NCBI GenBank assembly: GCA_011033025.1
Contig: WFMF01000348.1
Location: 1-64,000, forward strand
Reading direction: 5' to 3'
Origin: Beroe forskalii
Taxonomy: Eukaryota > Ctenophora > Nuda > Beroida > Beroidae
Length of the DNA stretch: 64,000 nt
Shown: positions 12,527-59,505 of the stretch, in pieces
How the letters are laid out: each line of letters begins with the position of its first letter
How positions within the stretch are numbered: the stretch's first letter is position 1
Notes under the pieces: generated by a model
The model's input: the letters and a program-made list of their open reading frames with translations, nothing else
What the model was told of the DNA's origin: nothing
Database searches by the model: none
Position numbers and translations under genes: made by a program

Positions 12527-12569
12527 TGACGTCATTATCACAGAGTAAAGTGGTGTGTTGATGACATCA
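12527..12569 (+). repeat. Palindromic CRE repeat, copy at 12.53 kb
   Basis: Leftmost copy in the window. Its left arm is exact (TGACGTCATTATCA) and its right arm is TTGATGACATCA, with one CG-to-CA type change. The outer arms are not recognisable. Confidence 0.8.
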
Positions 12570-12686
12570 CTAGGCTGCAGGAGATAAGTATTATCTGGGA
12601 TATGATGGCGACTATTTCACATTAGCGACCCATTATATCATCATTAGCAGGTACCTCACAAACTGATATGAAATATACTTCAAAAT

Positions 12687-12728
12687 AGCGTCATTATCCG
12701 AGAAAATAATGGTGAATTGATGACGTCA
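12687..12728 (+). repeat. Palindromic CRE repeat, copy at 12.69 kb
   Basis: The left arm is AGCGTCATTATCC, the loop carries AATGGTGAA, and the right arm is exact (TTGATGACGTCA). It lies only 118 bp after the previous copy in the same orientation. Confidence 0.8.
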
Positions 12729-14224
12729 TAGTACTTATAGGCCAGCGCTTCAAGCTAATATCTAATACACGGTGGCTGGTATCTTCTAGATGGCGTTTAT
12801 ATTATAGGACCGAAAATATCAACGCTCGAACTCACGGCTGTCTTTGTCGTATATATAACGCACTTTGCTTATCTTTCTTTCTATAAAATACATCGCTCTT
12901 ATTATCGGTTTAAACGTCGGTAAAACTATCTAAAGTAAACTTACTCGCTCAATCATACGTCATTGAGGTTCTAATTTACTATTCACGTTATACAGAGCAA
13001 CACAGGTCGTATATATATAAATATATGTTCGTTATATATTTACATAAGTTTTATTCAGAGATAAGCGCCTGCTTGGCCTTCACTTTTATAAATAAGCGTA
13101 TATAATCGGCTATTATACATACTGTCGAACCAATGATCGAACACTGATTTTACTTTATATCATGAAAACATAGACAAAAAGAGCAGGGTGAGGGGTTAAA
13201 AGACTAGAGACAAGCCGGGCATATATATTCGATGGGAGGCTCAAGACCTGAGCGAGAATTTTTACCAAAACACAAGTTATATTATGATATATATATATAT
13301 ATTACCATCAGGCAAACATATGTGTGTTTACATTATGTGCGGGATATAAATCTTCCAGTGTATACATATATAGATATATATTAGATACATTTCGATTTAA
13401 CTTCATACCTCTTAAACATCAGATGTCTTCATGTATCAGTCTGGTTCGGGTTATATCTTCCCATTCCATATATATCGATCAATTAATATTGTATCTGCGG
13501 TAAATATCTTATTTTATTGTTTTATCTATAGATGGATAAGATTGTCCATCATGAAGGGGGTTATGGTTATCTTACGAGACGCTTTTATTCTGGGACAATA
13601 ATTCTGGGAATCAAATTTTGGGGGTTAAAAATATGAGGTTTTTTTTCCGTGAAATCACCAAATTTTGTTCCAAATTTAAATGTCTCTCGTAAGATATTAG
13701 CTATTGTTTTATCCAAACGCATTTGTTAGAAATATATTTTATTTCGATCCAGAACGCGGCGTAACGAACCATGAAGTGATCATGGTTGAAAATATACTTA
13801 AGACATATATTTATGCTAAAAGAATTTTCGTGATCCATGCCTTTCAGACATATATAATATCTTTTTATTATGTGAGCTGAGTTAAAACATATATAAATCG
13901 CCGTATTTCCACTTTGTGAACCACGCTCTGCAGCCGAAAAATTGGTTTTGTTAAGTCATAAATTTCTCATTCAAACTCCTGATTATGACGTCATAGACAC
14001 TTGCCTAGCGTTTGCGCGTTGAGGCATACGCAATAGAACATAGTAGCAATATGTCTTGTAACTTTCTGACTACCACTATCTATAGACGGTAGCAACTGCC
14101 GTTTTTTCGCCACTGTAATCAGTGACAATGACGCCGGCTAGAGCCGCCAATTCCTCACAGAAGAGCTTTAAGCGTTGTACCAACCAACTACATATACCAC
14201 ACGCGCGAGCACTACTCAAACCTC

Positions 14225-14264
14225 CGTCATCAACGCACTACGTTAAGCTATGATAATGACGTCA
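14225..14264 (-). repeat. Palindromic CRE repeat, copy at 14.2 kb
   Basis: This inverted copy reads CGTCATCAA, loop with TTAAGCTATGA, then TAATGACGTCA. The CRE octamer in the right-hand arm is intact; the left-hand arm lacks its first TGA. Confidence 0.8.
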
Positions 14265-16802
14265 TTTCACTTAACTACATATCCTGCGCGTATATATTAG
14301 AACGGTTCTAAAGTGGAGGTCTGCCAGTGTTACGACGGACACTCTGGGCAATTTGCCCTCCTCCGCATCTCGCCATCTCTCAGGGCTGTTTACCTTTCTT
14401 ACACCGCATAACACTCGCCATTTGAGGGTACGGTCGAACCGTGGGAGTCCGTTCACACAAGCTGTGCGAGGGCGTTCAAAGAGCAGTTAGAAAATTAACT
14501 TTTGTTTCATGATCTTGTCTACAGTCTCTCAACTGTGGTATCAAATTATGAAATTAAGGCCAGGTTTTTTTCCCTTCACATTGTAACATCGTGTTCTTCT
14601 GATAACTGTTTTTAAGTCGTGCTCACTAAATTTTTAACGTTTCGTTAGACATAGATTGCGGGTTTAACCTGCGACACTCCTTTCATAAAACATGATGTGT
14701 ATTTTCTCAGGTACTTTAAGAACTCTCTTAAATATAAAAGACCTATTTCAAGTTAAAGAAATATATTCTTAACTCGTTCGAGGAACAACTCGCTTAACAT
14801 ATTATAAATACCCTGTATAAATTACAGATGTTAGGAAAGTTATGTGCGTTAATTTCAAGCGATTTTGGAAAATAGCTGCCGTTATTTTTGCAATTTCACG
14901 GATTTATCCCTTCCTCTTTATCGGCTGCACACGTATAACTTAACAGACTATTTAGAGAGGTATCATTATCACGGGTAATAGATTCGCGAATTGTTGCCGT
15001 TATTTTCGCATATGAAATATGCACGTTTCGTATATTATATGTTCGAGTTGTTACATGGTTACAAGAGTTAAGTAACAAATATACTGCAACTGCCATATAT
15101 TATTTCGATATATATTTTGTTGCGAAACTGCTAAAAACGAGTGGTTTTCGAAGAAAATTTTATCAAAATATGCTCGTCCCTTATAATAGTGGTTGCAGTA
15201 TCAGTACGAAATACGGTTCGTAATAATGGCTCGCACCTTCCGGGCTCGAAATTATTACTCACCGTATCACTACACTAGTTGTTAGATGGTTACAAGAGTT
15301 ATGTATCAAATCACAGTATGAGCATATAATATTTAGTGTTTATAACGCGCATGTGTTTTGAATCACAGTAGAAGCTGGGTATTAAGTTGTTACTTGTTAC
15401 ATGTTCTCATCACGGCACTTGGATACACCAGCAGTATCATGCTTCTGCTTGCCTCCGATTCACCCTTCCCGAAATATTGGTAAAATTGTGATACAGCTCT
15501 TTTTGAAAAAAGTTTTATCTGGCTGAGAACTTTGAACACAATATGCGTATTTTGATCATTCCATATTTTACCGGATTCCTCGTCCTTGGCCTTCCGAAAA
15601 ATAAGTCAAGACTTGATAAATGATTGTTCAGAAATCCTAAGTGTGTCTGTCAATTTACAGCGCACCCAAATCAACCAGGGATCTGCAATCAAATATCGAT
15701 ATTTATTTGGTCATATTTGGATTTAAATGATAATGAAAATCATATTATAATCTTTGAGCTTTTTATTCGACATAGAACTTTGAACGCCCTATGCAAATGC
15801 ATCTTTTGATCAATTTATATTTCGTAAATTTCATAAAATGTCGGAATCATTAGTTTTATTGCGAGACAAGCTGTGCCTTATAATAAAGATGTTCAATTCT
15901 CAGAAAACCACGCAAATCTCGAGTTCGAGTTGAAACGTAAAATTCAGTTTTAATTTATTTTGCAGCTCACCATTATCATTTCATTTGATCGCATTTGGTT
16001 TGATAATAGGCATCAAAACGCGATACATTTTGATAACACGACTTGTTCTCAAAACAATTCATGGCCCCAAAATGGCCCTCAATTAGTGAGATTCGAGGAA
16101 TTGTAAAAATCGTGAAGATTCAAGTGGCAAATTATCACACAGATTGATTAAGCGAGATTCGAGGATTGTTAGAATTTTGAAAGATTGCAGAGGCAAATTA
16201 TCACGCTGATTGCAACCAGGACTATAAAGGTATCGTTCACATATAACTTAATCAATTTTTGGCCGATTGTATCCCACCATCCCCCTCGTAATCAAGTTGT
16301 ATTTGCTACAATAACATGTAACCTAATCATTCGGAATTCGGATAAATTTCCATTACATTTCTATTACTACTCTGTCTGTCGTTAGGAACACTTATAGCAG
16401 ACTATTCAGGATAAAATTACCGTGAACTTTAATAAGTCCACAAATGTACCGATTAACCGCTTTATTGGGTATGCAAAATGCAAATTGGTACAAAAATTGT
16501 CAACTAGCTCAATGACTCTATCACTTCTTAAAGATAATTTCCTTCATCACAGGGTATTGGTAATAGTTTGAATGATTGAACCATAATATTTAATTGATGA
16601 TTCATTTGAATGAAATTGCGGTGCAATGTTCTGATATTAACAGCTGTTAATCATGCGTTTAAGTGGTAACAAAACTCCTGCATATAAATATATGTCTTCA
16701 TTACTACCATGAAATTAACACGTGCCGAAGCAGCATGATTCGGGGCAAATCAATTTAAATTCTTCATTATTATTTCAAGAGTAATACCCCATTGTCATGA
16801 TT

Positions 16803-16850
16803 CGTTATCAATTTACCATTCTCTTATTCTAAACCTTGATAATGACGTCA
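16803..16850 (-). repeat. Palindromic CRE repeat, copy at 16.8 kb
   Basis: An inverted copy with left arm CGTTATCAATTTACCATT and right arm TTGATAATGACGTCA. The loop is about 5 bp longer than usual. Confidence 0.75.
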
Positions 16851-18035
16851 CTCAGAACGCGTGCCATTTCTAATAATTATCAAGGGAACTTCCTATTTTG
16901 ACCATGTTGTAACGAACTGACAGTTTACGAATTGACTAACACTTTGACACTGCCCCCTTTAATATAGTTTGATAATGTGGTGCGAAATCAGTTACTGTAA
17001 CGTTGACCGATTTTATAACAGCCTGATTTCTGTCAAATTGATAGTTATTATTAGGCTTAAAAGTCTCAACCTTATCGCTTGGATAGCTCAAATGGTTTAT
17101 TGATTGCCTGAGAACCAAACAATTTAAAAATTCCTCAATTATACCAAACATTTTTTGGTTTAGTGATTCTTAACTGTTACCTTCTGCTCAGTGTCCATTT
17201 TGTCTACAAGCGTATTCCAAAGAACGAAGAGTTTTAAAAGTTCAGTGATTTCTTGGGTGTCCATTAGCAGCGTGGCTCGGCCTCGAAGGTAGCTTTCGCC
17301 GATAATAAGCCACATTCTGTTCTAATTTTAATTGTTTCCATTTTGATTTTATTTCGGTAAAACATTAACAAGTTCATTTAGAAACCAAAAAGTAACACCA
17401 ATTCCACATGCACCAACAAAGAAAACCCATTAGCCAATCAGACGAGGTTTCATGGTTACTTCAACCAATGAAAATTCCCATTTCCCGAGTGAAGTGGTGA
17501 TGAAGTGGCCAAATGTGAATCATTAACAGTCCTTTCTTACCTACTTTTTGTAGTTTTTAGGTATGATCTGCTTGTTTTTGAGTTTTCTATCTTTTGAGCA
17601 CATGTTTTTGTTCGGAGATAATTACTTAATTGGATTGACACATCTTCCGTAAATGACTAATGCCATTCAAACTCTCTGTAGACCACTTTATATGTGAACT
17701 TTTAATGGTCATGAACGAAAAACAAGCGATTTGAACTTTAAAAAAACGATTCTTAAACCGCAACAAAACGACACGATTCTCAAGTGCCTATCCTTTGCAA
17801 GTGACCTATAAATGAACTACAAAAATATACGGACTAACTGCACTACCTAAGTATTTCTAGCGCTAGCTATATTTTGCTTCAAAACGTGCGTGGTTGCTTA
17901 GTTATTAACTTACTTCAGTTTTGAGCGAAAAATAATTTGATGATTATATGATAAATGGTTTCTAAAATGCTATGTGATAGTTACATTATATATGCGATAT
18001 AATCTGCAAAATCCCTATATGGATGGTCTTCAATG

Positions 18036-18505
18036 ATGGCATTATCATAAGTCAAAGTAAACAATTGATGAAACTATATTTCCATCTATTTGCACGGCGT
18101 AAAATTTATAGTTTTACTTTTTAACGGAAGAAATAATCTAGAGAATCACAGGCGGGAGATATCTCCAATTAAATGACGGCATTATCATGAAACAAAATGA
18201 ACAAATGATAGCAATATTCCCTCCCGTAGATTAGGAAAAATATTTGCGTCGCCAATTGCTTTATTGAGAGCGTAGATCCAGCCACCTAGCCGAATTTGAG
18301 GATGATTTTGTTTTCCTGACTAAAAATCAAGGAATTTTCTTGGCTTTTTGATGAATTCAGTTTGGATTTTCAGTAAGTCAACTTTGCTTAATGACGATTC
18401 CTTTCCCTGTCCTATGAGTCAAAGCTGAAATTGATGACACTATTCCTCTTCTTTTGCGCGGCGTAAAACTTATCATTTTATTATTTTACTTTTTAATAAC
18501 GCCGA
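18036..18505. repeat. Diverged relatives of the palindromic repeat
   Basis: Two segments, ATGGCATTATCATAAGTC at 18036 and ACGGCATTATCATGAAAC at 18174, keep the TTATCAT loop start and a ...AAATGAT/TTGATGA end but have lost the CRE octamers. A shared tail GCACGGCGTAAAATTTAT (18092) and GCGCGGCGTAAAACTTAT (18456), each followed by TTTTACTTTTTAA, ties the segments together as one degenerate family. Confidence 0.45.
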
Positions 18506-19516
18506 AATGAACGTTATCGTAAAATTCCACTGGTGAGGTTTCTCTTGGTTATATTATATTGAAATGGTACATTCTACTTCATATTTCGGAGTAGACATAA
18601 TAATATATATGGCATCAGCTGTCAAAAACAACGCATAATTCATTTGCATTTTAGCGGGTCGATTTTAAAATGTTTGTACAGCTATGATTTTTTCATTATT
18701 CATTTGTTGCTTGAGTTCATATAATCGATCTGATCCTTTTTGAGCGATTAGTGATTACTGCCCCGAAAGGTATTTTCAACAGTGGTGTCATTATCAAGAT
18801 AATGAAAGCTCCCTTGTTGGTTTGGAAATGAACCCTGTTTTGGAGTTGACATTGTCTTTCGCTCCGATCAGTTACTGTGGGTTTATGGGGGGGGGGGTTT
18901 GAATTCAGATATTATACGTAAGGACAGAAATAGTCAATCCAAGATAATTATGCTTTCTGAATGCAATTCTAGGAGTTATATATCCCAACAGGCTTCATTT
19001 TGTCCACTTACTGGAGCAAGTAGCTTAAAAACCTACGACAGTGCCTCAACTCCTTAACCCTTTTTGTCTGAGATATCAAACATTTAACTTCAAATTATGT
19101 TTCACGGTTTCAGCAATGTCTCGTGTAAAAATTGACCTGCATCGTCAGGATTTATCGGTTTTACTTACGCGTTAAAATAGGCGGCTGTGAATGACCCAAT
19201 TAAGATAGATTTGAATGGTCAATGGTTGATCTGCCAAAAATTTCACCTTCGACATATAATTTATGCATGAGTCAAATCATAAAATCACGCAGTATAAGAT
19301 TTCTGCAATAACCCGAAAAATTCCCCTGACGCCCGAGAACCTCGACCTTTTTCTGTTAAAAACGTAAGATTTCATCCTCAGGATCGTTTGACCATAATTT
19401 AATTAGGTGAAAATGTTTTGGTGAACAGTTCTAGAACATATTTTCACTGGCACGTGGCCCCTGATGTCCAAACATATGCTCATATTAACTCCAATTATAG
19501 GCATAATTTCGCAGTG

Positions 19517-19590
19517 ATCTGGCACCATTTCATTCCGACACTCATTCAACACCCCATTCTGACACCAGTTTGATTTGTCACCACCTCACC
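19517..19590. repeat. TGACACCA minisatellite fragment
   Basis: Short, diverged array with TGGCACCATTTCATTCC, GACACTCATTC, CAACACCCCATTC and TGACACCAGTTTG. It is the reverse complement of the TGGTGTCA unit seen at 8887-9180. Confidence 0.6.
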
Positions 19591-20255
19591 TTAATTAAGA
19601 CCACTGCCGATCTGACAAATCCATTTTCTCATTTCTGGCATCACATACCGTCTAGCTAGACTTTTAGTTCTATATCTTGTCTCGCAGTGCCCAGTCTTTG
19701 TAACGTTTTGAATATTATTATTATGATTCATGACTTGATAAGTACTTTTATGCGGAATTTGATATTCAGAGATGCTTATTTACAGCCCAAAATGAATAAA
19801 ATTAAACCCTAATTCTGCTAATTTTCGAAAAGCACAGAGGTACAGCCATTAAAACGATAATTTTATATATGTTTTACGTAAATCGTTATCTGACACTCAA
19901 ATTTTTGCTTGAATTATCAGTCCAAACACAGACATCGAATTTCATGTCAACAAATTTTATTAACAAAAAACCATCTTAAATTACCATTATTTGAGTCTGG
20001 CACAAATGGTCAGACCCTTTTGTCTTTGAATATGCATGTTTCTTCTCGTTTAGATGTGCGTTCAAAAACATCTGATTTCACGAATTTTACTCAATTCTAA
20101 TCTTTATTGATTGCAAATTTCTGTTCTATTCTTACGATTCAAATACTAATTCACTACGTTATTTAGGTTACATGTCGAAGTTTTGCGCTTGAAAGAGAAT
20201 CAGTACAAAAAGAAGACCATCCATTGAAAGAAACCCGTTGACCACATTGATCGCC

Positions 20256-21694
20256 ATGTCGATGAATCCAGCTGACTTGGATGACAACATCACAGCGGAG
20301 GATTTGATAGCCCAACTCCAACGCGATATGTCAGACAGCAACCTATCCAGCAAGAGCGATAGCAACATCAACTCCAATGGCAGCAACCATGGTCATCATG
20401 GTAACCATGGTCACCATGGTAACCATGACAACAATAACAACACCATATCACCCAGTGGCAACAAAACATCGGCCCTCTTCAAGAAAATCTCCCAAAAACG
20501 CGCCACCCGAAAGATCTCAAAAGGCAACCTAGCTCACGGTATCCCGCCAGAAAACGTCCCTCTCCTCCACAGCGATCAACATGACAACAAGACTCCACTG
20601 TTGCTAAACAACGGACACCACTACATCTCACTGCTACCAGGGGAGCGGTATGTCGGGTGTGTGGATTCCAGTAAACCAAGTGTCAGTGTGATATTCCAGA
20701 ATCCTGGGTCTGAGGGGGAGAGTGAGGGGAATGGAGGAAATACAGGAGAAGATGGGTTCGGAGGAGGAGAAAAGGGAGGGAAAGGAGTAAAAGGAGGACG
20801 AGAGTCTGAGAGAAGAGGAGGAGTGGTAGACAAAGATCATCATCTGGGGAGGTTTGGGAGAACTAAAGTCCGCATCCACTGAGATGTCTGGGTACAATGA
20901 AAGAGGTATTGACGTGGTGATGTCTGCTCCTGGAGCAACTTTTCAAGCAACCTTCCCAGTGCCATTCCCTGGACCTGAAGTTGCGAGTGACCCTCTGCCA
21001 TCAACTGAAAAAGAGCAGAAGTTCAAGTTGATTGTAGACCTAGAAGAGCTGATAGTAAAAATTCTAACGATGGGAATGAAGCGCTTCCTTCCCCAATCCC
21101 AACATATCAATAACTAAACCTCCAAGATCTCCCACGGAAGTATAGAGTTTGCTGCTGACCCTAACAAAGGAAGTGAAATCAGCACCTGCCCAACCTAGGA
21201 TCCGGAGTCACAAATCAGCACCTGTATCCCGTCAGGTATCAGATACAGGGACCATCCCTGAGATCAGGGATTATTATAACCGGGGACATAGAGAACGGGA
21301 CTATTCTTGGGAACGGGACTGCCTTCCTGACCGGGGGTGGTGGTGGGATTCATGTGGAAAATGGGTCCTATTGCGGGAGTAACCATGGTAACCACACAAC
21401 TGGTTCGCATGGTAACAGTTCCCCTGGTAACGGCTCTGTCCCTGAAGACCACTCCAACTACAAGCCATGCTCCGTGCTAGGCATGTGTACTGCTCACCAC
21501 AAAGGAAACTGCACAGGAACTCAGGTCAGCAGCAGCGGGTTGTAAACCCAAAACCCGCCCCCAAAGTCTCAACCCGTCAGAGTAACAACCTGTCAAAGTC
21601 TAAAGTCAGGACCTACAGATCTTCCTTCAGAAGGACCAGTGTAAGGGAGTCGAGGAGGGCTACCTCGCTGAAGGAAAACAGGAATCATTTGCAG
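20256..21694 (+). CDS. Large uncharacterised gene, first coding exon region (with frame changes)
   Basis: The start chosen is ATG at 20256 (MSMNPADLDDNITAEDLIAQ), with a second ATG at 20262. The open frame runs to about 20850 and contains a His/Asn-rich stretch with HHGNHGHHGNH and then a Gly/Glu-rich stretch. Coding character continues to 21694 but in other frames: LKSASTEMSGYNERG from about 20855, RIRSHKSAPVSRQVSD from 21150, ENGSYCGSNHGNHTTGS around 21300-21530, and KVRTYRSSFRRTSVRESRRA to the donor. The last codons end in phase 0 at CAG|GTGAGA and fit the exon at 22067. The repeated frame changes suggest assembly indels or decay; small introns are a less likely cause. The product is Ser-, Gly- and basic-rich with no recognised domain. 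Confidence 0.6.
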
Positions 21695-22066
21695 GTGAGA
21701 TGGTAGTGAGGGAAGGGGTAGTGAGGGAGCGGTTTAGAGACAAGGCACTAGAATTAGAATTAGGATTAGAATCACTTTCACAATTTAGACTTTTAGGTGG
21801 GGTGGTAATACTCTGCATGTGTTTACATTCGATAATTCCCGGGAGAATTCAAATAAATGTTTCTGCTCCCTTGCCCCGTTGGCCTTGGTCAATAGAATTA
21901 CAGTTAGAATCATTTTCACGATTTAGACTTTATGGATAAAGGACGATGTTATATGCTTCTTTATCTTAGAAATTAGCCCATGTAAAACCTGAGTCGTTCG
22001 TTTTTTAATAGTTTAATCAATCCACGAGGAGTTTGAAATGGGTCTATAATATCTTCCTCATCTCAG
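21695..22066. other. Intron of the large gene
   Basis: It runs from donor GTGAGA to acceptor CTCATCTCAG. It contains a diverged duplication: ATTAGAATCACTTTCACAAT at 21760 and TTAGAATCATTTTCACGATT at 21905, each followed by TAGACTTT. Confidence 0.6.
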
Positions 22067-26334: not shown

Positions 26335-26393
26335 ATTTTAATACTTGAACATGATACACTATATAGCGAGAGGGTCAGGAGATCGGGAGTATT

Positions 26394-29234: not shown

Positions 29235-29402
29235 CACCTCCAATTCCTCTTGTTACCGTAATGATCTCTGTACTAATACAATGAAAGAGTTAAAATCATA
29301 TACCTCCAATTCTTCTCTCACATCAAAACATATATTCTGGGGACACAGGTGTACTTATAACACAACACACAGGACACTAAAACAGATGTTATTATGGCGT
29401 TA

Positions 29403-29444
29403 TGACGTCATTATCAGGGTTTAAAATGCGCTATTGATGACGGA
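29403..29444 (+). repeat. Palindromic CRE repeat, cluster member 2 at 29.4 kb
   Basis: Left arm exact (TGACGTCATTATCA), loop GGGTTTAAAATGCGC, right arm ATTGATGACGGA. It is followed by GTTGATTGTTCTTTAGGTT, a word partly shared with the flank of member 3. Confidence 0.85.
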
Positions 29445-40264: not shown

Positions 40265-40881
40265 GACTTGTATATTGAGTTATAGTGGATGTAGTAAGTC
40301 GCATTAGTGAATTACTCTTCATTTTCTTAGCTTTTTGAGATCCATTCAACAGGAATTATAGCTTGGACACATTATAAATGGATTAGGAGTTTTAGTTTCT
40401 CCATTGAATAGAAATTAGTTTGGACGCATTAAATGGATTAAACTTGTTTTAAAGTTTTGAGTCCGTATTTTGAATATTTTGAATATTTTCATATCCTTTT
40501 TGCCGTTTAGGTACATGCCTCTTTCTTTAGATGTACTAGAACTTTTATTTTTCCTGCAAACCAAAATGCATATTATTTGCCGTTTGGGCGTATCCCTTAC
40601 GAACCCTTTAGGTATCAATAGCATATTTTATCGGCTGAATGAATTGTTCGAGTCATATTTTCTTTGTTTTTCGCATTTATCTTCGAAAAGAATCGAAAAC
40701 CCATTGTTTCCCGATGTCCTCTTTTCTCTTTCAGTAACTCTTTACTCTTTGAGTATCCATGAACTGACCGCCCCACCCTTGCACCATGCTAAGCAATCCA
40801 TGATGGCATGGAGTTCTGTTATTTCTTGATTGCAATCCTTGTGCTGAAACCAATATTTTATCTCTCTGAATATAACATCAG

Positions 40882-42966
40882 CCATGGGGAACGAACTTGA
40901 AAAACCATCCGGAAGGAAGCATTTGTCCGGTTCTCAAGTCATCACTAGTTCTTCTTCGGAGGGTTACAGTTTTCAAGGAAGTACACCAGAAGATACACCC
41001 GCTGTTCGAGTAACCAATGCCCCAGGGGACAATGTCCGGAGAAGGAGTACACCGGAACAAACTAAATCATGTCAGGAAAATGCGACAAATCCTTATCAAG
41101 TAACGACAAATCATACAAATCCTTATCAAGGAAATTTGTTGGAAGTGAGCCAATTAAAGAGTGATTCCCTAACAACCAGCACGGGTAAAGGTGGGTCTGG
41201 AGAATCCAGTTCGGACTACCACTCCGCTGATTTCCATATGGAGAAGAGAAATGGAGAAGAGGAGGAAGAAGAGGAGGAGGAGGCTTGTCTTGAGATCCCT
41301 GTTGATGTGAACACCACTGATGATGAAACCGATGAGGATGACGATGTTGTCATAGGTGGTGGTTGTCTGGTGAAGAACAATCATTCTGGAAGCAGCGAAG
41401 AACTTCCTAAAGGCATCAAAAATGTCACAGACGATCAGGTGACAAATGATAATTTTGAAAGCAGCGGTAATTTAATTAGCGATAACCTTGAAAGCGGCGT
41501 TAATGTCACAAGCGATAATCTTAAAAACATCGATAACCTTGAAAGCTGCGATAACGCTGATTTGAATGAAACTATCGTCGACGAAGATGACGAAGATGAC
41601 GACGTTGTTATTGGAACTGGTAACATCACCCGTGACATCGCTGCCGATGAAAATGTTACTGGTGTAGATGAAATTATTTGTGAGGATAATGCCGCCCAGG
41701 TTATCCTTGATTTCGATGATGATGAATCTGATGAGGATGCTAAAAGTCTCAATGATGAGGAAGTTATCGTAGCTGGAGAAGAATCAACCACTGATCCCCC
41801 GGAAGAATCAAGGAATGTCTTAGCAGAAACCCTCCAAGAATTTGCTTTTCTTGAAGAAGACGACGATTGTTGTTATTCCGATGCCGGTTCTCAGAATTCA
41901 GACATCCAGGAGATTCAGATTCAGTTTGAATCATCCTCTGAAGATGAAGACCCCTTTGGTGTCCGGGAGACATCGCACGATGTTGAGATAGAGGTGGAAC
42001 ATGTGATTGATTGTGATCAAACTTCCAAATCCGATCGATCAGCAAAGTACTGTAAAGGTGAGGATGAGGAAAGGAGATCATTTGCGAAGATCAAACGACT
42101 GTGTCTCGATGAACTGAAGAGATTTGCCCGTGGGGATGAAAATAGGTTTACTACCGATGAAACCCAAAGTCAGTCTAAAACCACTTTTTCTGAGTTGGAC
42201 GATTCGTATCAAGAACATTTGAGTACCTACGATGGCAATACTTCCAAGATATCGTTTTCAGAAGAACTGACTTCATACGAATGGGATGATTCCAAAAACT
42301 CGTTCACTGAAGGGACAGATAAGAATCCACTTCTTGATCGTTTGAACGAAATCCCCGGCATCAACGATTCCCGATCCTCCGCAACCAAAGTAACGATAAA
42401 ACTCACCAAAACTCTGAGCGTGGACAATCTTCCTGATTTGAGTATGTCTTCAGAAACTCCTGACCCATCTTCAGATCAAAAGATCCCTCGACGGAAGAAA
42501 ACCAAACGATCACCCTCCCTCAAACTCTCCTCCAGTCTTTGTAGGAGCATCACCGATATCACTAAGATCGGAACTTTGGGAGTGAGTGAGCGTGATCCTC
42601 TCTTCTCCCCAGGACAAATCAGGAAGATGTTCTCGTCCACCTTCTCTTCTCCCAAAAACGTTCCTCGTCGCCATGTTCAGTCCCTTTACTCCCCCTCCGA
42701 TGATGGGATTGAAGTCGACCACCTCCTCGGAGCTACTGTCGAGGGCTCCCCTAAGAGCGGCAAGAAGTCCCCTCTTTTCGAGCGTCTGACTAACTGGGAC
42801 GGGTTTAGGAAGAGCAGGAAGGGAGGAGGTTCTGGGCTGGATGCCAAGTATCTGAACAACACGATCAGTGATCCGGGTAGGGTGAAGAGAAGAGCGTCTC
42901 TAGGGGCGCTGACATCAGCTCCATTGTACGAGGAACAGCCAACTTTCAACCAACTCGCAGCCAAAC
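40882..42966 (+). CDS. Large uncharacterised gene, 2.1 kb exon (acidic, Ser-rich)
   Basis: The AG at 40880-40881 is followed by CC and ATG (40884) in a strong Kozak context, so the exon can be internal (entered in phase 1) or start a shorter isoform. It has 694 codons, ending in phase 1 at CCAAAC|GTGAGT. It opens MGNELEKPSGRKHLSGSQ. A Glu tract (GEEEEEEEEEACLEIP) and two copies of a DEDDDVVIG motif form an acidic N-terminal half, with an Asn/Asp/Ser repeat (SGNLISDNLES, NVTSDNLKN) between them. The middle has SYEWDDSK. The C-terminal part is basic and Ser-rich: RRKKTKRSPSLKLSSSLCRS, SLYSPSDDGIE, PLFERLTNWDGFRKSRK, RVKRRASLGALTS, FNQLAAK. It looks disordered and phosphorylated; no enzyme domain or membrane segment is seen. 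Confidence 0.9.
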
Positions 42967-43500
42967 GTGAGTTTTATACTTGGATTTCATATTTTTTATG
43001 ATTCAACTTCCACTTGTTAACTGCCGGGCGTGCTGTAATCAAATTCGCGCGATATTGCGCGCGCGATTCAAATTTTGCGTGTCAAAGTAGGAAATGCGCG
43101 CTTATTGCATAAATTTTCTGCGATGTGCAATGCAATGTGTATACCTAGCTAATAATACGGAATACCTTATGCCTAATAAATCCATACCTCATACCTATTA
43201 TGATGAGTGACGTGTGAGGAACAGCCGACTTTCAACCAACTCGCAGCCAAACGTGAGTTTTACAAGGAGTTAATATCATAGTTCTGATTCAACTTGTTAA
43301 CTGCCCGGGCGTGCTGTAGTCAATCTCGCTGGATTGCGCGTGCGCGATTCAAAATATTCGTGCGAGAGTAGGAAATGCGCGCGTAATGCAGAATCTTCCA
43401 GCGATGTGCATTGTGCATTGTGTATACTACCTAGATTATAATATGGAATACCTTATGTCTAATAAATATCCATACCTCATACCTATTATGATGTGTGACG
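42930..43500. repeat. Tandem duplication of exon tail plus intron, two units of about 285 bp
   Basis: The end of the big exon with its donor (GAGGAACAGCCAACTTTCAA ... CCAAACGTGAGTTTTA) and about 240 bp of intron recur from about 43216. The second unit keeps the exon-like tail and donor but has no acceptor in front that would make it an exon. Shared intron words include AACTGCC..GGGCGTGCTGTA, AGTAGGAAATGCGCGC and CATACCTCATACCTATTATG. The copies differ by many substitutions and small indels. Confidence 0.9.
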
Positions 43501-46088: not shown

Positions 46089-46170
46089 GCGCGCGCGGAG
46101 AATAGACGACTCAATGTCAGCAATATTCAATACTTTAAGCTATGATAATGACGTCACTCGACCGCCTATT
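46089..46170 (-). repeat. Palindromic CRE repeat, complete copy at 46.1 kb
   Basis: Both outer arms survive: GCGCGCGCGGAGAATAGACG at the left and CTCGACCGCCTATT at the right. Core reads ATGTCAGCAATATTC, loop AATACTTTAAGCTATGA, TAATGACGTCA. Confidence 0.88.
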
Positions 46171-46254
46171 GGTTTTGCTTGACCAGTTCCCTCCGTTTAG
46201 TGAGTTAGTAGTGTAGTTGCAGAATCTCAATATATATTACCGTTATCATTAGAG

Positions 46255-46990: not shown

Positions 46991-47002
46991 CGCCGGGATA
47001 AT

Positions 47003-48294: not shown

Positions 48295-48905
48295 CTAATG
48301 AACACTCGTTTTTCATGAGACGTATAAAAGTACTCTATTCTTTGTGGCTTGTACGGAACTTATTTGTTCTTTTGTCTCGATAAAATATGTTGGCGCTTCT
48401 GTTGTTGGCTTCCTTCAGGAAGTCTGAAGTTTTCAATAAAAAATATGTTTTTCCTCAGAAAAATTGAACCGTTTCTGAAAATTTGCTTCGTGCTGATTCC
48501 TGTATAACCAATGAAGCAATAAAGATTGAATCGTATTGGAAAATAGTTGTAAGGACTTTGGTACTGAATTATGGTAACCGATGAAGCAACCAAAATTTTA
48601 TAATTTATAATTTGTTGATGTTATGCCATCTCGGCGACCCTTTTAAATTCGAGCCTGCACCGATCAAAGGACAGAGTTAGCTCCCAAAGATAAATGTTTG
48701 TGCTTAGCACATATCAATCTGTACCTTATTATCCAATTAGTATTTAATCACTCAATAATCCGAAGTGTAGTAGCACTACCATATATAGAATAATTGCTTA
48801 TTAGTTAATTAAAATGGCGGATTCCTGAATGTTCTAGCAGGTTTTACATCCTCGATGATTTCCGGAGAATAATTTCCCCGCTCAACCACTTCCCTTGCAA
48901 GCAGG

Positions 48906-48990
48906 AAAAAGCGGTGTGACGTCATCAATTCACCAATTTAAACTTTGATAATGACATCACTTTTAACCAGCCATTTTCCGCCCGCGCGGG
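48906..48990 (-). repeat. Palindromic CRE repeat, complete copy at 48.9 kb
   Basis: Left outer arm AAAAAGCGGTG, TGACGTCATCAATT, loop CACCAATTTAAACTT, TGATAATGACATCA, right outer arm AACCAGCCATTTTCCGCCCG and CGCGGG. This copy shows best that outer arms exist on both sides. Confidence 0.92.
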
Positions 48991-52196: not shown

Positions 52197-52339
52197 CATT
52201 GAAAGCAACCCGTGAACCCTTACATCATTCTCTTTTGTACGTGGAACGTGGTTATATTCCTTTCTGTCACAGTTCATTTTCCTTCAATATACTAAGTACA
52301 GAGCTCATATCACCCAAGACAAAGACGGTTTATGATTTG

Positions 52340-52396
52340 GATTAGTTCTCCATTCTAAGCAATGATAATGACGACATTTCTTTACTGCCTATTTCT
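52340..52396 (-). repeat. Palindromic CRE repeat, copy at 52.3 kb
   Basis: Loop CTCCATTCTAAGCAATGA, TAATGACGACA, outer arm TTTACTGCCTATTTC. Confidence 0.65.
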
Positions 52397-52932
52397 AATG
52401 CTCACCAACATTCTTCTCTTTGTCCATGCGGGCAGGCCCCACCGATCTCTCAAACTCCGAATACAGATCGAGAGCAGAGCTGATTGTCGATAGATTCTTT
52501 GGTGCTCTTTTTGTTGAAATATATCTCGAGGATCATAATATATTTCTTTTGATCAAGGAGCTTTAAAAAGTGCGTGACCTCTTTGTACAACTGCAATTCC
52601 ATCCAATTTCATTGTCATGATTTGTGTTTTTTCATATCATTCGCTCCATTTGATCTAACCTTCGACATTGTTACGTTTCTAAGAAGCCATTCTATTCGCC
52701 AAAAACATACATCTAGCTGCACTAATGTTTGTTGGTGATCTGTTCGTTTTGTGAGGCTATATCTTCTTGGTACTCCATGATATCTTAAAATAGTGGGTTC
52801 CCTCAATTTCACAGCCAATTGGAATGCTCAATTGGAATGCTGGGGAGAAGAGGAGTCTTGCTACGCTGTTTACCATACATTTCTTAGCGTTTGTGTTTAT
52901 TTTAACGGTGCTTTCCTCTGGTTTATTGTTGA

Positions 52933-53030
52933 TAATCGCCTTAAAACGTATAAATAATCGCCTTAAAACGTATAAATAATCGCCTTAAAACGAATAAATA
53001 ATCGCCTTAAAACGAATAAATAATCGCCTT
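52933..53030. repeat. 22 bp minisatellite, about 4.5 units
   Basis: AATCGCCTTAAAACGTATAA repeats with a CGTATA to CGAATA change in the last units. Confidence 0.95.
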
Positions 53031-53048
53031 CATAGAAGGAAGGCTGAT

Positions 53049-53092
53049 GTGCCTCAATAATTCACCATTGTAAAACTTGGTAACTACGTCAC
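53049..53092 (-). repeat. Palindromic CRE repeat, copy at 53.05 kb
   Basis: GTGCCTCAATAATTCACCAT, loop TGTAAAACTTGG, TAACTACGTCA. It directly follows the 22 bp minisatellite. Confidence 0.6.
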
Positions 53093-53796
53093 ACTCAAAT
53101 ATATGCTTGCTTTTTGCCTCTCCTGAACCATTTGGAGATGGTTTTTTGCTGGTTTATCACATACCATCCCTGCAATAGTAGCTACTGGCTACGTTTTGAC
53201 TCGTTGTATATAAGGGCTTAGGGAACCGATGTAATTGAATTCATTTTCCCTCTTTCTTGTTTTCTCTTTTCCATGCCTCTTATGTGCATAGTCTGCATAT
53301 ATTTTGGAATGAATATTTTAGTAAACATACGTCCATTTCGTTTGCAAGAGCTAGATGGCTTTTTCAAGTTGCAATTCTGCAAATATCACAGGCATTCCAT
53401 CGCAAAGGACAATAAACTGTGTTGGGTCTATTCGTTTCTAAACTTTCGTTGAATCCACTCTCTCCATTTTCTGGTGAATTCCTTCCAGTATCCCATTGAC
53501 ACGAATTCATGACATCCCTTGATCTAGCTCCAAGTATTGCTCAGATCCCTATTTCTCAAGTCCAGGGTTATTTCCTAATCTTCAGAGACATATCACGTGG
53601 TTTTATTTCATGTCACGTGACCTACTCTCAACTTCCTCATCCAATCAGATCACTGCATTTGATCACGTGACATATCCCACGTGACTGTGAGCCCTAATGA
53701 TGATTCTGATCGGGTGTATCCTGCTACGATTATAATACACAATAATCCTCACACATTGCTGATCTTCCTGCAAGATTAATGTGTAGACCACTGAAG

Positions 53797-53854
53797 ATGA
53801 AGTCATTTCCATGGCTGAGAATGGGGTGTATAACATTCGCTGAACCGCCTAAAG
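53797..53854 (+). repeat. Palindromic CRE repeat, copy at 53.8 kb
   Basis: ATGAAGTCATTTCCATGGCT, loop GAGAATGGGGTG, right arm lost, outer arm TGAACCGCCTAAAG. Confidence 0.65.
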
Positions 53855-54060
53855 TCGAATCGAGATCGCCCTATTCCTTTATTTTCGTGGGTGGTGGTTA
53901 CTGGTTATATTCTGAGATTAATTTGCGGAGATAGCTGTCATGATGACCTAGGACGGGTTATAGTATTGGTTGGCATATTATTGTGTACCTATTTCAAGTC
54001 AGGAATTTGATATTTACACCATACATCGTGCAAATTTCTGCATACCGTTCCTTTGATTCC

Positions 54061-54178
54061 ATATTGAGGATCTCCCAACCTTCATTTGCTTCTACATTGA
54101 GGATCTTCCATCTAAAACTTGCTTTAAACTTGAGGATCTTCCATCTTTCCTTTGCCTCCATTTCGAGGATCATCGGAC
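54061..54178. repeat. Tandem TTGAGGATCTTCCATC repeat, about four units
   Basis: ATTGAGGATCTCCCAACCTT, ATTGAGGATCTTCCATCTAA, TTGAGGATCTTCCATCTTTC and TTCGAGGATCATCGGACATC follow at 35-40 bp spacing. Confidence 0.8.
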
Positions 54179-54540
54179 ATCTTTGCTTATGTCGAAAGCA
54201 CGCAGTGGTTCAGGTAAATATGGTTTTCACCTTTTTTTCTTATTGGATGCTCTTTTTCCAACATTCAAAACAGGAGACTGTTCGCTGCCATCAATCCTTC
54301 AATCACTCATTCTAAACCATAACATTGTCGTCATTCTTGTGAACTGCCAATGAATATTGTGTCTGCTTTATTGATCGTGGTAGACTTCAGGCGTCATTTG
54401 ATTCCTACTTCATGGATTGGTGAAAGTGGCGGTTGAGTAGGCGGCACGAAATCAGCAGACGTAGGTCAATGGGCAGAGATATTTCTCTAAGATTTGAAGG
54501 TAGAGATAAGGTCTTCCCAGATAACATATGCTACTGAAGC

Positions 54541-54604
54541 TGATGTCATTATGATGGCTTAGAATGCATAGTGAATCGATGTCACTCAACCACCTTGCCT
54601 ACGT
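54541..54604 (+). repeat. Palindromic CRE repeat, copy at 54.5 kb
   Basis: TGATGTCATTATGATGGCTT, loop AGAATGCATAGTGAA, TCGATGTCA, outer arm CAACCACCTTGCCTACGTG. Octamers lost. Confidence 0.65.
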
Positions 54605-54897
54605 GTACGAGACAAAATATACACTGTATACTCAGTACATTTTCTAAGCTCGAAACAAGATCGCTCGCGTTTCAAATCGTTTGTTTCTGATTAAAGAACT
54701 CGTTATCATGCTCTTTACAGGTTATCTAGGTATTTTGAATCACACTGTGTATTCATGAAAATATCACATCAGTAAATACGTACACTGTACAGTGTACACT
54801 GTACATAATTCAGTTTAGACCCTGAGTTTAGACCCTGGTAAAAATATAGTACCTTAATATTGATGAATGATCACAACTTGAGGATTAGAGGAACTTG

Positions 54898-55025
54898 GAT
54901 AGTAACCATGGTGACATAGATAGTAACCATAGTAACATAGACAGTAATCATAGGTAAATAGAAACACTGAAAGTAACCGTTTATCATTGATAGAAACCAT
55001 AGTAACATATACAGTAACCACAGTA
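54898..55025. repeat. 20-21 bp minisatellite, about six units
   Basis: ATAGTAACCATGGTGACATA, ATAGTAACCATAGTAACATA, CAGTAATCATAGGTAAATAG and CAGTAACCACAGTAA are variants in a row. The open frame on the minus strand is a repeat artefact. Confidence 0.85.
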
Positions 55026-55242
55026 AGGTCATGCCGAGGTCTAAGTACAAGTACCACACTATTTCTGGGGGCATGTCCTCCCGGCCCCTTGTTACCAGCG
55101 TCTTCCCGGGATTCTCCTCCCCTGAACAAGGTAGTTACTGGACTAATAATTCTAAATTTTTATAAAATTGAGGTAAGGAACCCCCCTGAGGAATCTAGGA
55201 ACTTGGTCAGGGTAAACTGATCATCTCAAGAATAAATAATAT

Positions 55243-55360
55243 AAACTGGTGTCAAGGTAAACTGGTGTCAGGGTAAACTAGTGTCAAAATGAAGTGATGT
55301 CAAGATGGAATGTGTGTATTCTGTTTGGTCGAACTGGTGTCAGGCTGTGGACTTGTGTCA
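55243..55360. repeat. TGGTGTCA minisatellite, about six copies
   Basis: AACTGGTGTCAAGGTAAACT, GGTGTCAGGGTAAACTAGTG and related words, the same word as at 8887-9180. It lies 90 bp before the acceptor of the next exon. Confidence 0.75.
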
Positions 55361-55450
55361 AAGATAACGACTTCTTTCCAGGATCTCGCAAATTTCACTT
55401 AGCTCTTCACATTTGAACAATTCTTGACAATAACCCTCTTTGTATTTCAG

Positions 55451-55514
55451 TTAAGAAGTGTGACAGCTCTGCGAGTATCTCCAGTACGGACTCTTACGAG
55501 TGGGATGACAGAAA
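55451..55514 (+). CDS. Large uncharacterised gene, exon after the 2.1 kb exon
   Basis: Acceptor TTTGTATTTCAG, donor AGAAA|GTACGT. The TT at its start completes the C left by the 40882 exon to Leu, reading AAKLKKCDSSASISSTDSYE WDDRK. It enters in phase 1 and leaves in phase 2. SYEWDDRK repeats the SYEWDDSK motif of the preceding exon. The joint fit of phases on both sides makes the exon call firm. Confidence 0.85.
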
Positions 55515-55700
55515 GTACGTTTTCTTTTAAATTGTCAAATACCAAATGATTAACAAAAGAGCAAGAGCAAAAAATGAAAATTTGGATTAATTCTTAATTT
55601 GATTTCAATCAAATTTGGAACTTGTTTGTTTTCGACAGAAATTGAAATTCCACCCTCCTGATTTTCCATATCAAACATGCTAATTTCTCGTTGCTTTCAG
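55515..55700. other. Intron, 186 bp
   Basis: Shortest intron of the gene, GTACGT to TTGCTTTCAG. Nothing else seen. Confidence 0.8.
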
Positions 55701-55776
55701 ACGGACGATATCAGACAACCTCAGGAAAAAGCTTGGTAATAACAGCTCGTCAAAGAAACCACCTGACACCCTCATG
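55701..55776 (+). CDS. Large uncharacterised gene, next exon
   Basis: Acceptor GTTGCTTTCAG, donor ATG|GTATGT. Entered in phase 2 it encodes KRTISDNLRKKLGNNSSSKK and PPDTLM and ends in phase 0. KRTISDNL is a typical basophilic phosphorylation context. The peptide is basic and Ser-rich like its neighbours. Confidence 0.85.
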
Positions 55777-56962
55777 GTATGTTGTCAAGTTCTTGTTGTC
55801 TGTAATTTAGAGGAAATAATGCAAATTTTAACTTTTTAAGCTATCCCAAAACCTCAGAGGTAACGAACGGACTACTTCGCGATGAACACTGAACAGTGAC
55901 CAGACGTTCAATCAGTAGGCGAAAAATTCCCACGCCGCGCGCATAGGGGGTCCTTTTCAACAACAATTTGGCTTTGCGCGTGACGCAAAATGATGTGAAA
56001 TTTTAGGATTGTTCAGTTTCATTCGATCTGTTTTGTCTTTCGGGTCTTTTCGAAGATTTAAGAGGGATTGATCAAATTTTTCCTGATATTGCTTTAGCTC
56101 CTCACTCATTAGTGAGGCTTTGCTCTAAACATGAGCAGCTCATCTTGTCTCAGCCGAACAGTAGGTCCTGTGATGCACTGAGATGATTGGCAACATGAAT
56201 CCATACCCCATATCACATCCAAAAAGCACATTTGTGCCCTTAAATCTGATGACAATTGTATCGTGAATGGGCAGTTGTCAGTATCAAATTGTCACGAATA
56301 GGTTTAGTCAGAGACCAGTTGATTGCCTGGTAATATCTTCATTTGGTCGGTACTTGGAAAGTTGTAAGGAACAGCATTGTCCAACCAATCAGCTATCAGG
56401 TATTTGCAGCGTTGATCCTGATTGGCTATAGTAATTCCAAACCCCCTCATCTAATAATCCAATATCATCATCTCACACCTTTGTCATACTTTAATGTCCG
56501 TCGACCAAAGTGTGTGATATGTCTAGTTTGTAAGTTTGTAGTATAGTTTGTCGATGTGAATTGTGATCTTGTGATCCCGTTTTTGTGATCATTCGTAAAC
56601 TTTGATATTCTCGTTAAGTATAATATAGAATTCCTCAAGTTTCATCATGGAAATTCATGTATTTAGAATGAAATAATGTACGGGATATTGCTTGAGCTCT
56701 CGAGCTGTGAAAGCTTTAAAATTACAATCAAAACTCTTCTGTATTGCTGAGTGCTTTACTTATAAATTGACGATATTGATAGCTCATTGCATCTACGTAG
56801 ATCGCGCTGGTCTTTCCGAGAAAACTCGTCCAGACTTAGGGAACCAAAATGTGTTGATTTGTAGCATTTGGTGGTTCCTTTTAATATTACTCATTAATTA
56901 TTGTTTGTGGCCTCATGATGGATCCAGTTCCACATGTAACATGTTAATCTCTTGTCCTGGCT

Positions 56963-57032
56963 AATAGGCGATGAGATTGCTGTCATTTTCATAGTTTAAA
57001 GTGATGAATTGATGGCTTTTAGTCGCCTATTT
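56963..57032 (+). repeat. Palindromic CRE repeat, complete copy at 57.0 kb
   Basis: Outer arms AATAGGCGA and TCGCCTATT are exact reverse complements. The core reads GCTGTCATTTTCA, loop TAGTTTAAAGTGATGAA, TTGATGGC, so the CRE octamers are gone here while the outer stem is perfect. Confidence 0.92.
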
Positions 57033-57748
57033 CTCGTCCGTGACCTGTCGATTCCCTATGTGTAATAATGAATTAATCATGTCTGGAACAACTCTCTTCG
57101 ACCGCCAAAGAAACTGATGAGATTGTGCTGTCTTCCCAGTCTCTACTTTTGACGACCATCATATTGGTAATCATGATTTTTAATCGTTTAATCACATCCA
57201 ATACAAGATTGTATATTATGTCTAACATGGCCTGGTATGAAATTTCACTGTGAGGCGTATCTTCTCATCCGAGACTTGTGCAAATTTGCAGGAATCAGTA
57301 TAGTTTTTCTGTTTTTGGATTTGTTTCTATCTGTCAATTCGATTGGAAATGTTATGAATAATGATCTCGTCTAGTCGATCCTTTCCCAAAATCAAAGTTT
57401 ACATGATCGTTGTTACAATTTATACCTTCTTGAAAGTCCTTCGTTATATTCGTAAAACTATTCTTTTATCTTTTTGTTTCGACTTTTTGACCGACTATAG
57501 TTACTGTTGACTTACGGGCTGTCTTAAAGTCTGCTTTACTGATTGGATTAGTTAGTAACATTGGATCACATCAAATCGATAAAACGCCAAAAGCAAAAGT
57601 CATCAACATTTAGCGTTGTTGTTGGAATGATATTGATTTTTTCATCAGATTTCTGAGCAGGTGCAAGCCAAGCTGTTAATTCAATAATAAAATGACGCCA
57701 AACATCTGTATGTGATTTATCATTCGCAGTAAACCAGTATTAGCGCAT

Positions 57749-57795
57749 TTTTATCTACGAAACACTGTACAGAAGTGCTGTCCTCTGATCAATAA
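57749..57795. repeat. Short dispersed repeat, copy 2 of 3
   Basis: TTTTTATCTACGAAACACTG, then TACAGAAGTGCTGT, then CTGATCAAT; see copies at 4489 and 63727. Confidence 0.6.
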
Positions 57796-58198
57796 TATTG
57801 GCACTTATCGCGTTATGGATATTACAGAATCTGGAAATACAATACAGGCGGGTCCGTGGTCCGCTTGCGCTGATAAGCAATTTTTTGGAAGATTAACATA
57901 AAAATTATTATTTTATTTCTTTAAGTTGTTCTTAGTTTATGTCATCAATAATTGCTAGGTACCTACTTTATAGCTTTTTCTAGCAGCAGCATTTTGAGCG
58001 ATGAGTTTTATTTGACTGAATTCAGAAATCAGATCGGACTTGAATACGATTCAAATTTTAATAAGATTTTAGTTTCTCCACTGGAGATATGGTGACGTTA
58101 ACTTATAAATTTCCTATGGTTTCAACTACCCGTGAGAGTCTCTTAATTGCCCTGGATCCGCCTGGTGATGTCACGAATCAAGTTACAGATCCACTATC

Positions 58199-58285
58199 CG
58201 CGCAAAAACAGTAGATTTATCCCACTGACGTCATTATCAGGGTCTATAATAGTGGATTATTGACGGCTAAAAGCCTGGTTTTTGT
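58199..58285 (+). repeat. Palindromic CRE repeat, near-complete copy at 58.2 kb
   Basis: CGCGCAAAAACAGTAGATTT at the left, core TGACGTCATTATCA (exact), loop GGGTCTATAATAGTGGA, TTATTGACGG, then AAAAGCCTGGTTTTTG as a decayed outer arm. Confidence 0.82.
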
Positions 58286-58388
58286 GACTGAACAGTACAA
58301 TTATAAAACCCAACCACACGATTAAATCACGTGACCTATCCGGGCATTACACTATAGGTCACTCACAATAAATGGAGGTTTTTCCATC

Positions 58389-58427
58389 GTTAATCCCACC
58401 ATTGTAACCCCTGATAATTACATCAAT
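58389..58427 (-). repeat. Palindromic CRE repeat, degenerate copy at 58.4 kb
   Basis: TAATCCCACCATTGTAACCC, TGATAATTACATCA. Opposite orientation to the copy 130 bp upstream. Confidence 0.5.
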
Positions 58428-59416
58428 GTCTCCTAAATTTTGCTTAAGTGCGACCTGAGCTGTGTATAAATATAGGGTTTATAGTACCTCCCACCTCTAA
58501 GAGGCATATGACCACGCACAAGACTCGTAATATTTATACGCAGGGAGAAAGGTTTGTATGTTTTGAGAACCTCGCCCACTATATGTTTGTATCTAAATCA
58601 CATTATATTATATATCGTGATATCGTCTTGGGGGAGCGTCAGTTAGTGCGCTAAATTGCTCATTAATCAGCAAAAATCGCTGCATTCGATGCATTTATGT
58701 ATTGTGAGTCGGGCTAAAGTTGTTTCGCTGTATTGTGTGTTTTGTGCTGTAATGGTTAGTGTTTTGTGCAGTAGTGGTTCCGTTACAGTGCTATGGGCTG
58801 AGTGGTTCAGTGGTTTGGCCATATTTTGTGATATTTAAGTAGTTTGGTTGTCCATGTGGTTTGATTACCATTTTCATTGATTTTAAGGTACAAACTATTA
58901 AAGAGGAAAATGCAGAATAGAAAGGAATACCTTCACCTTGCCCTTTCGGCCCTATTCTAGTTTTCGTGCTAAAATACCTACTTTTTGTTTCGATTCTTTC
59001 ACCGTCTTTGTCCCAATCCTTTGCTCTCGAAGGTGTTAAATTGAGTTGCTAAGTTACTCTTTGCGATTCATTGTTCAACACTTTTGCTCCTCGTCTGTAT
59101 ATGAGTTGACCTTTTCTGTTCTTTTTAGCTTTTTCTTCTTTGTGTCTCGAATCGCTTCTTGTACTTTTTACTTGAATACATGTAATGAGTAATGACTATT
59201 TTCAGAACTGTTTGCTACTTGTCTGTTAGTTACTTTCTGAATTACTATATTGGACCTTGGTGGATAGCGTAATTCTCTCCGAAATACGAGAGATATTACC
59301 AGCTGCTTCTATTTTTATGCAAATAACACATGCATAAAATGCATGTAGTCGCCACTCTCAAAACCTGCAAAAATTCACGACTTATAATCTCAAGTGTTCC
59401 GACTGCCCATTGCTCG

Positions 59417-59505
59417 CACCTGAAAACAAACAGTTGAAAGTGACATCATTATCACGGTTTAGAATGGTTATTTGACGACATCTAGCAGGCTATTTAATGC
59501 GGCGG
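59417..59505 (+). repeat. Palindromic CRE repeat, copy at 59.4 kb
   Basis: Core from 59441: TGACATCATTATCA, loop CGGTTTAGAATGGTTAT, TTGACGACATCT, then AGCAGGCTATTTAATGCGG. The flank AACAGTTGAAAG before it matches the common inner flank. Confidence 0.8.

Follow-up and report, generated by a model that had tools for sequence, protein, structure and literature searches.

The window analysed here is the stretch formed by bases 1-64000 of contig C412 (189,050 bases) of the Beroe forskalii genome (216 Mb, 1,134 contigs). It carries a dispersed repeat whose core contains the octamer TGACGTCA, a cAMP response element (CRE) motif of the CREB/ATF type, and which is interpreted below as a miniature inverted-repeat transposable element (MITE). 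A detection profile built solely from copies outside the window, applied with a cut-off of E ≤ 0.01, gave 66 matches over both strands; because the element is palindromic, its copies were matched on both strands, and the matches merged to 35 separate copies, present in both orientations, between positions 12526 and 59495. The same profile gave no match in the reversed window and none in any of five Markov-1 shuffles. Alternative counts were 51 matches with a looser model that included the window copies and 33 with an ungapped core scan. The initial annotation of this DNA had reported about 35-40 dispersed copies in both orientations, which agrees with the profile count; the loop and right half that it described were recovered by the core scan, and the three copies that it cited as complete were located at 46097-46171, 48904-48980 and 56963-57036. 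The copies are listed with their strand and profile score.

12526..12571, +, copy, core only, left CRE octamer intact, 31.8 bits
12688..12729, -, copy, core, one CRE octamer at 12721, 22.8 bits
13935..14005, -, diverged copy, one CRE octamer, 15.1 bits
14225..14268, -, copy, core, one CRE octamer, 29.2 bits
16803..16860, -, diverged copy, exact 14-mer core, 15.3 bits
22290..22352, +, copy, no intact octamer, 22.1 bits
22726..22797, +, copy, no intact octamer, 21.7 bits
26049..26120, +, diverged copy, 15.6 bits
26247..26324, +, copy with arms, one CRE octamer, 31.7 bits
26831..26865, -, half copy, 15.8 bits
27727..27790, +, copy, one CRE octamer, 36.3 bits
29192..29249, -, copy, one CRE octamer, 35.5 bits (35.4 on the + strand, where the ungapped core scan puts it)
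29396..29442, +, copy, core, exact 14-mer, 27.3 bits
29575..29652, +, copy, both arms, 39.6 bits
34091..34150, -, copy, exact 14-mer core, 25.9 bits
34763..34808, -, diverged copy, 13.4 bits
35560..35619, -, diverged copy, 13.4 bits
36322..36397, +, copy with arms, 25.7 bits
37103..37160, +, copy, one CRE octamer, 27.7 bits
38447..38511, +, best-scoring window copy, both CRE octamers intact, 58.2 bits
39179..39238, +, copy, 39.3 bits
40023..40095, -, copy with arms, one CRE octamer, 41.5 bits
43602..43672, -, copy with arms, 23.7 bits
44528..44596, -, copy, both CRE octamers intact, 41.1 bits
44745..44820, +, copy with arms, no intact octamer, 20.8 bits
46097..46171, -, copy, both arms and GCGCG flank, one CRE octamer, 36.6 bits
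48237..48301, -, copy, both CRE octamers intact, 40.4 bits
48904..48980, -, copy, both arms, one CRE octamer, 44.5 bits
50113..50162, -, diverged copy, 13.2 bits
51584..51622, +, copy, left half, exact 14-mer, 16.8 bits
52124..52196, -, copy with arms, 23.1 bits
52342..52396, -, diverged copy, 20.0 bits
56963..57036, +, copy, both arms, no intact octamer, 25.0 bits
58226..58282, +, copy, exact 14-mer core, 22.3 bits
59432..59495, +, copy, TGACATCA form, 26.9 bits

The profile search found no copy in positions 1-12,000, as had been noted before, and none beyond 59,495. The density described earlier as near one per kb was measured as about 0.74 copies per kb (35 per 47 kb) in the dense stretch. 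The octamer TGACGTCA occurs 26 times in the window, where 0.76 occurrences are expected from base composition, and it is accompanied by 13 TGACATCA and four TGATGTCA variants. The window copies are old, and their sequence blurs outwards from the core. A CRE octamer had been assigned to each arm of the repeat: 22 of the 26 octamers do fall within copies, but only 3 of the 35 copies retain the intact pair, while 16 have one intact octamer and the remaining 16 have none.

The complete element and its abundance

With a 72-bp inner consensus as a genome query, copies elsewhere in the genome were 89-98% identical across the matched part, and 60 copies were fetched with an exact right-half 24-mer, about ten of which had longer shared arms. 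A 107-bp genome query gave 40 scored loci, most of which matched nearly the full query, the best with 97% identity over 106 of the 107 bases. The aligned full-length copies share their ends and read YTA-WACGCCGCGCACGAGAAATAGGCGGGTAGGATGACGTCATTATCATAGCTCAATGTAGTGAGTTGATGACGTTGAACCGCCTATTTCTCGTGCGCGGCGTW-TAR. The full unit is 101 bp between two TAs, and the 75-90 bp given by the initial annotation corresponds to its inner part. The unit is non-coding, as had been proposed.

The element is built of terminal inverted repeats (TIRs) of 25 nt, WACGCCGCGCACGAGAAATAGGCGG...CCGCCTATTTCTCGTGCGCGGCGTW, of which 24 positions are paired in the consensus, followed by short spacers and an inner hairpin on TGACGTCATTATCA...TTGATGACGT. 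The terminal 27 nt, with the TA counted, are on average 83% paired within a copy, a mean over those 33 copies (of 36) whose aligned length is exactly 107. Of 48 copies, 47 had an aligned length of 106-108, YTA and TAR included, and one a length of 101. The ends are symmetrical and inverted, with WACGCC as their outermost bases, and no tail was seen in the aligned copies. The two-step hairpin suggested earlier was obtained with the consensus of the younger copies, both as DNA (-44 kcal/mol, z -12.3) and as RNA (-68.9 kcal/mol, z -11.3), but three window copies folded as DNA were much weaker (z -2.8, -2.7 and -0.9).

The 216-Mb genome contains 7,719 exact occurrences of the 14-mer TGACGTCATTATCA (3,926 forward, 3,793 reverse) and three of its reversed control (one forward, two reverse); the repeat is not confined to the window. 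Eight 10-kb stretches chosen regardless of the repeat contained 19 copies (0, 2, 6, 0, 6, 2, 3 and 0), from which a genome total of some 50,000 copies can be extrapolated, a figure that is only approximate, given the strong clustering of the copies. For contig C1, a set of 92 exact-core positions (100 positions listed, minus eight that lay in a tandem array or less than 40 bp from a neighbour) gave a variance-to-mean ratio of 3.75 in 25-kb bins, and 2,000 random draws never exceeded 1.6.

The element was amplified at least once more recently. The mean divergence of 32 younger copies from their consensus was 5.7% at non-CpG and 7.3% at CpG sites. The CpG decay that had been read from the window copies is borne out in its direction by the genome-wide counts of the 14-mer, which occurs 410 times in the CpG-decayed form TGACATCATTATCA and 56 times with a G-to-C change, 13 of the latter on one short stretch of contig C434. 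Arm loss is frequent: of 45 copies selected on the two core halves, 11 had two recognisable arms, 17 had one and 17 had neither. These data show in outline that the CpG-rich ends decay once a copy has inserted and that one arm or both often disappear, so that old copies such as those of the window show mainly the inner core.

The core also occurs in tandem arrays with a 35-36-bp period (L135:223-473, corresponding to C1:1188950-1189650, and L009:8514-8654), and has therefore become a minisatellite too; a further array, at C434:138121-139184, is deduced only from the spacing of the listed matches. Four pairs of copies (L028/L029, L049/L059, L054/L055 and L123/L124) have closely similar flanks, and represent MITE copies carried by duplications or lying inside other repeats.

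Target duplication and empty sites

The boundary was scored in 36 copies from the full-length search, three of which matched only in part. TA was present at both ends in 27 of them, with Y preceding it in 33 and R following it in 35, and the next outward bases were A and T in 24 copies each, giving the palindromic target AYTART. In 60 copies picked on inner sequence alone, the occurrence of TA after CCTATTT also peaked at the offset that was predicted, 15, with 18 of the 60 copies there and 10 at the next most frequent offset. Since the peak recurs in copies picked in this way, the TA boundary is not an artefact of full-length selection.

Empty sites were searched for with the joined flanks of 13 copies and, in a second round, with 18 joined flanks. 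The clearest case is the copy at L104, which sits inside another repeat and whose joined flanks matched straight across at no fewer than 29 places. When paralogues were fetched, all 12 were without the element, and the target was CTAG in ten of them and CTTG and CTGG in the other two. The empty site reads TTTGAC-TA-GTGTTAGAACTCG and the filled site TTTGAC-TA-(element)-TA-GTTTGAGAGCTCG. A second empty site, less clean and in the same register, was found by comparison of L058 with L153; here TG stands in place of TA, and the left flank contains an extra gap of about 40 bp. In L106 and L128, an uninterrupted copy of the element's own target adjoins the element, and the junction again shows TA. 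No clean empty site came from L154 and L155, which are related to the flanks of L129 and L117.

Each insertion thus adds a net 103 bp, with the TA duplicated, at YTAR sites. Insertion with TA duplication was shown most clearly at L104, and because the empty sites demonstrate insertion, the repeat can be classed as a MITE with TA target duplication. The suggestion of a MITE-like non-autonomous element is upheld by the genome-wide dispersal, the sharp TA boundary and the empty sites, and the target-site duplication that was to be sought at the unit's ends lies at the outer boundary of the 101-bp unit. The repeat that hosts the L104 insertion (L136-L147) is itself a second dispersed repeat, CCATCCAGAAGAGAGTCTTTGACTAGTGTTAGAACTCGAAGAGACTTC, with at least 29 matches of 80-92% identity.

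Origin of the element and alternative explanations

In our judgement the window repeats are very probably decayed copies of a 101-bp, hairpin-shaped, non-coding MITE that inserts at TA, is mobilised in trans, most likely by a Tc1/mariner transposase, and is present genome-wide in very many copies. The element is short and non-coding, has TIRs with fixed ends, shows TA duplication with empty sites, and occurs in many dispersed copies. It inserts at YTAR with duplication of the TA and, as it codes for nothing, must depend on a transposase supplied in trans. Tc1/mariner is the most likely source since this superfamily duplicates TA, and TA duplication with a palindromic AYTART preference is typical of it. 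The CRE octamer would belong to the inner hairpin itself, where the transposase or a host factor may use it as a second binding site, and effects on neighbouring genes would be incidental or the result of later co-option. The element is of an ordinary type, notable chiefly for carrying a CREB/ATF-type motif to many places.

Several observations weigh against this interpretation. TA was missing at one or both ends in 9 of the 36 scored copies. The ends of the younger copies vary more than their inside (0.85-0.91 versus 0.97-0.99), to which search bias may contribute. In 6 of 48 copies (L106, L128, L132, L065, L134 and L122), direct repeats of 11-31 bp have their start or end at the TA junction, a feature not expected from simple insertion at TA. 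Four of these six had direct-repeat scores of at least 33, against a single one of the 562 shuffled pairs; the scores of L134 (26) and L122 (22) are also reached by a few shuffled pairs, and these two were counted because their repeats abut the junction, while L112 (26), whose direct repeat lies farther off, was left out of the count. In L132 and L134 the other arm ends about 16 nt short. The direct repeats and the short arm may reflect one-ended insertion, insertion into a tandem duplication, or later repair. Among 68 older copies, direct repeats were near background, with a score of at least 24 in one copy (0.2% of shuffled pairs) and of at least 22 in two (0.8% of shuffled pairs).

Two further objections concern the transposase. 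The terminal bases of Tc1/mariner elements are typically of the CAGT/CACTG type, and those of this element, WACGCC, are unlike them. In addition, no autonomous partner was found in a search that covered PF13358 and PF03184: five PF13358 loci lacked these ends within the 3.2-3.5 kb that were read, the only longer match to the element among the PF13358 loci being a 26-bp inner piece in L152, and there were 22 PF03184 matches, whose flanks were not read. Two of these five loci are Tc1-like elements with clear terminal repeats, which start CAGTAGGG and TAGTGTGTCC (CAGTAGGGTGCC, TAGTGTGTCCC); they are not the partner. One of the two, at L148:1194-2577, contains an open frame of 413 aa, and its terminal repeats, 36 bp long and 97% alike, start CAGTAGGGTGCC. 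A tentative alternative, which we regard as possible but clearly the less probable, is that the MITE is moved by another TA-duplicating superfamily or an unknown transposase, as would be allowed by the missing partner among the PF13358 loci read and by the WACGCC ends, which are unlike those of the two Tc1-like elements with clear termini; the AYTART preference accompanying the TA duplication matches Tc1/mariner behaviour instead.

The abundance of CRE octamers within the window copies could also suggest a regulatory repeat, whose copies would be retained as putative CREB/ATF sites in a cAMP-responsive network, with the core under selection. In line with this, the left core was better kept than the left arm in the 60 copies chosen by the right half (86.8% versus 60.8% identical to the consensus), and 51 profile hits of at least 20 bits gave, at non-CpG sites, identities of 0.92 for the left core, 0.78 for the loop and 0.61-0.63 for the arms; the arms were likewise poor at 30 exact-core loci, and the 7,719 exact 14-mers also suggested selection. 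Judged from such sequence comparisons, selection on the core is possible. This explanation was set aside because the arms are often lost as blocks (36 of the 60 left arms were no better than background, the level of 173 of 180 controls, so that low arm identity is partly outright loss), because the excess of the core in 32 younger copies is slight (0.992, versus 0.983 and 0.969 for the inner arms), and because the profile is biased to copies with good cores. Moreover, 35 of 36 younger copies have an intact left octamer and only 3 an intact right one, and exact right-half 24-mers without the CRE (TTGATGACGTTGAACCGCCTATTT) outnumber those with it genome-wide (220 versus 84; control, 0). Since most younger copies lack the right octamer, the CRE pair is a feature of older or sister subfamilies, and the latest amplification did not retain it. 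Any intact octamer is left in only 19 of the 35 window copies, and we consider a regulatory origin of the repeat unlikely.

Also improbable is a scenario in which a host bZIP protein of the CREB/ATF type is a mobilisation cofactor, so that the CRE core would be the functional heart of the element, preserved even as the ends diverge and are discarded, with one-ended insertion a common side route and the sown CRE sites forming a lineage-specific cAMP-responsive layer.

A structured RNA or SINE-like (short interspersed nuclear element) family spread through RNA, the other possibility raised by the initial annotation, is highly improbable. The strong RNA hairpin of the consensus would accord with it, and the direct repeats and truncated arm of some copies resemble the target duplications of retrocopies; against it stand the duplicated TA at the two empty sites of full-length copies, the symmetrical inverted ends with no tail seen, and the lack of any Rfam match in the window at gathering thresholds, and two of the six direct-repeat cases (L106 and L128) are better read as insertions into a local tandem-duplication unit. 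Helitrons and Helentrons were set aside on account of the symmetrical ends and the TA duplication, and PIF/Harbinger, which makes a 3-bp TWA duplication, was rejected because only TA is duplicated here, with Y before and R after it.

Surroundings of the copies and comparison with known systems

Two long open stretches of the window, 20193-21936 and 40848-43001, contain no copy start, which fits avoidance of exons in what is a small sample. Sixteen open reading frames of the window, including these two stretches, had no Pfam match at the thresholds used. The stretch at 40848-43001 holds, on the plus strand, a 717-aa open frame with acidic and serine-rich stretches. On the minus strand at 9151-10190, open reading frames resemble, by eye, pieces of a seven-helix receptor, also with no Pfam match. 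The window further contains a unit of about 350 bp repeated four times in tandem (2696-4116, matches 93%) and a 19-bp unit repeated 35 times in tandem (1027-1696), the minus strand of which is open in a proline/leucine-rich frame.

With the MITE identified, a prominent repeat is accounted for as a mobile element, and its consensus and boundary are available for masking. If even a few copies were bound by CREB/ATF proteins, this genome would clearly exemplify the spread of a known transcription-factor motif by a MITE. A literature text search returned no article containing TGACGTCATTATCA. Among the items listed in a search with five shorter pieces, none concerned a transposable element, to judge from title or opening of the abstract, and among those listed in searches with descriptive terms, none reads as describing this element.

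The element resembles TA-duplicating Tc1/mariner-type MITEs such as Stowaway in being short and non-coding, in its TIRs and TA duplication, and in its very many copies, but its TIR sequence does not match the ends typical of Stowaway or Tc1/mariner. The 35-36-bp arrays are reminiscent of the tandem short units of a Porphyromonas gingivalis MITE with an internal minisatellite, a bacterial element likened here by its description (PMC4596501).

The closest described analogue found is MADE1, the MITE of the human mariner Hsmar1 (PMC1784062). MADE1 is 80 bp long, with two 37-bp TIRs around 6 bp and 7,850 annotated copies; it forms a stable hairpin if transcribed, is said to avoid coding exons, and gave rise to miR-548 genes. 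Both elements are near-whole palindromes, very short and of high copy number. They differ in sequence and termini, the element described here being 101 bp long with an asymmetric inner hairpin that carries TGACGTCA, and, unlike MADE1 with its derivation from Hsmar1, it has no known autonomous parent. By analogy with MADE1 in humans, its hairpin makes the element a candidate source of small RNAs, and it may offer a similar route to them.

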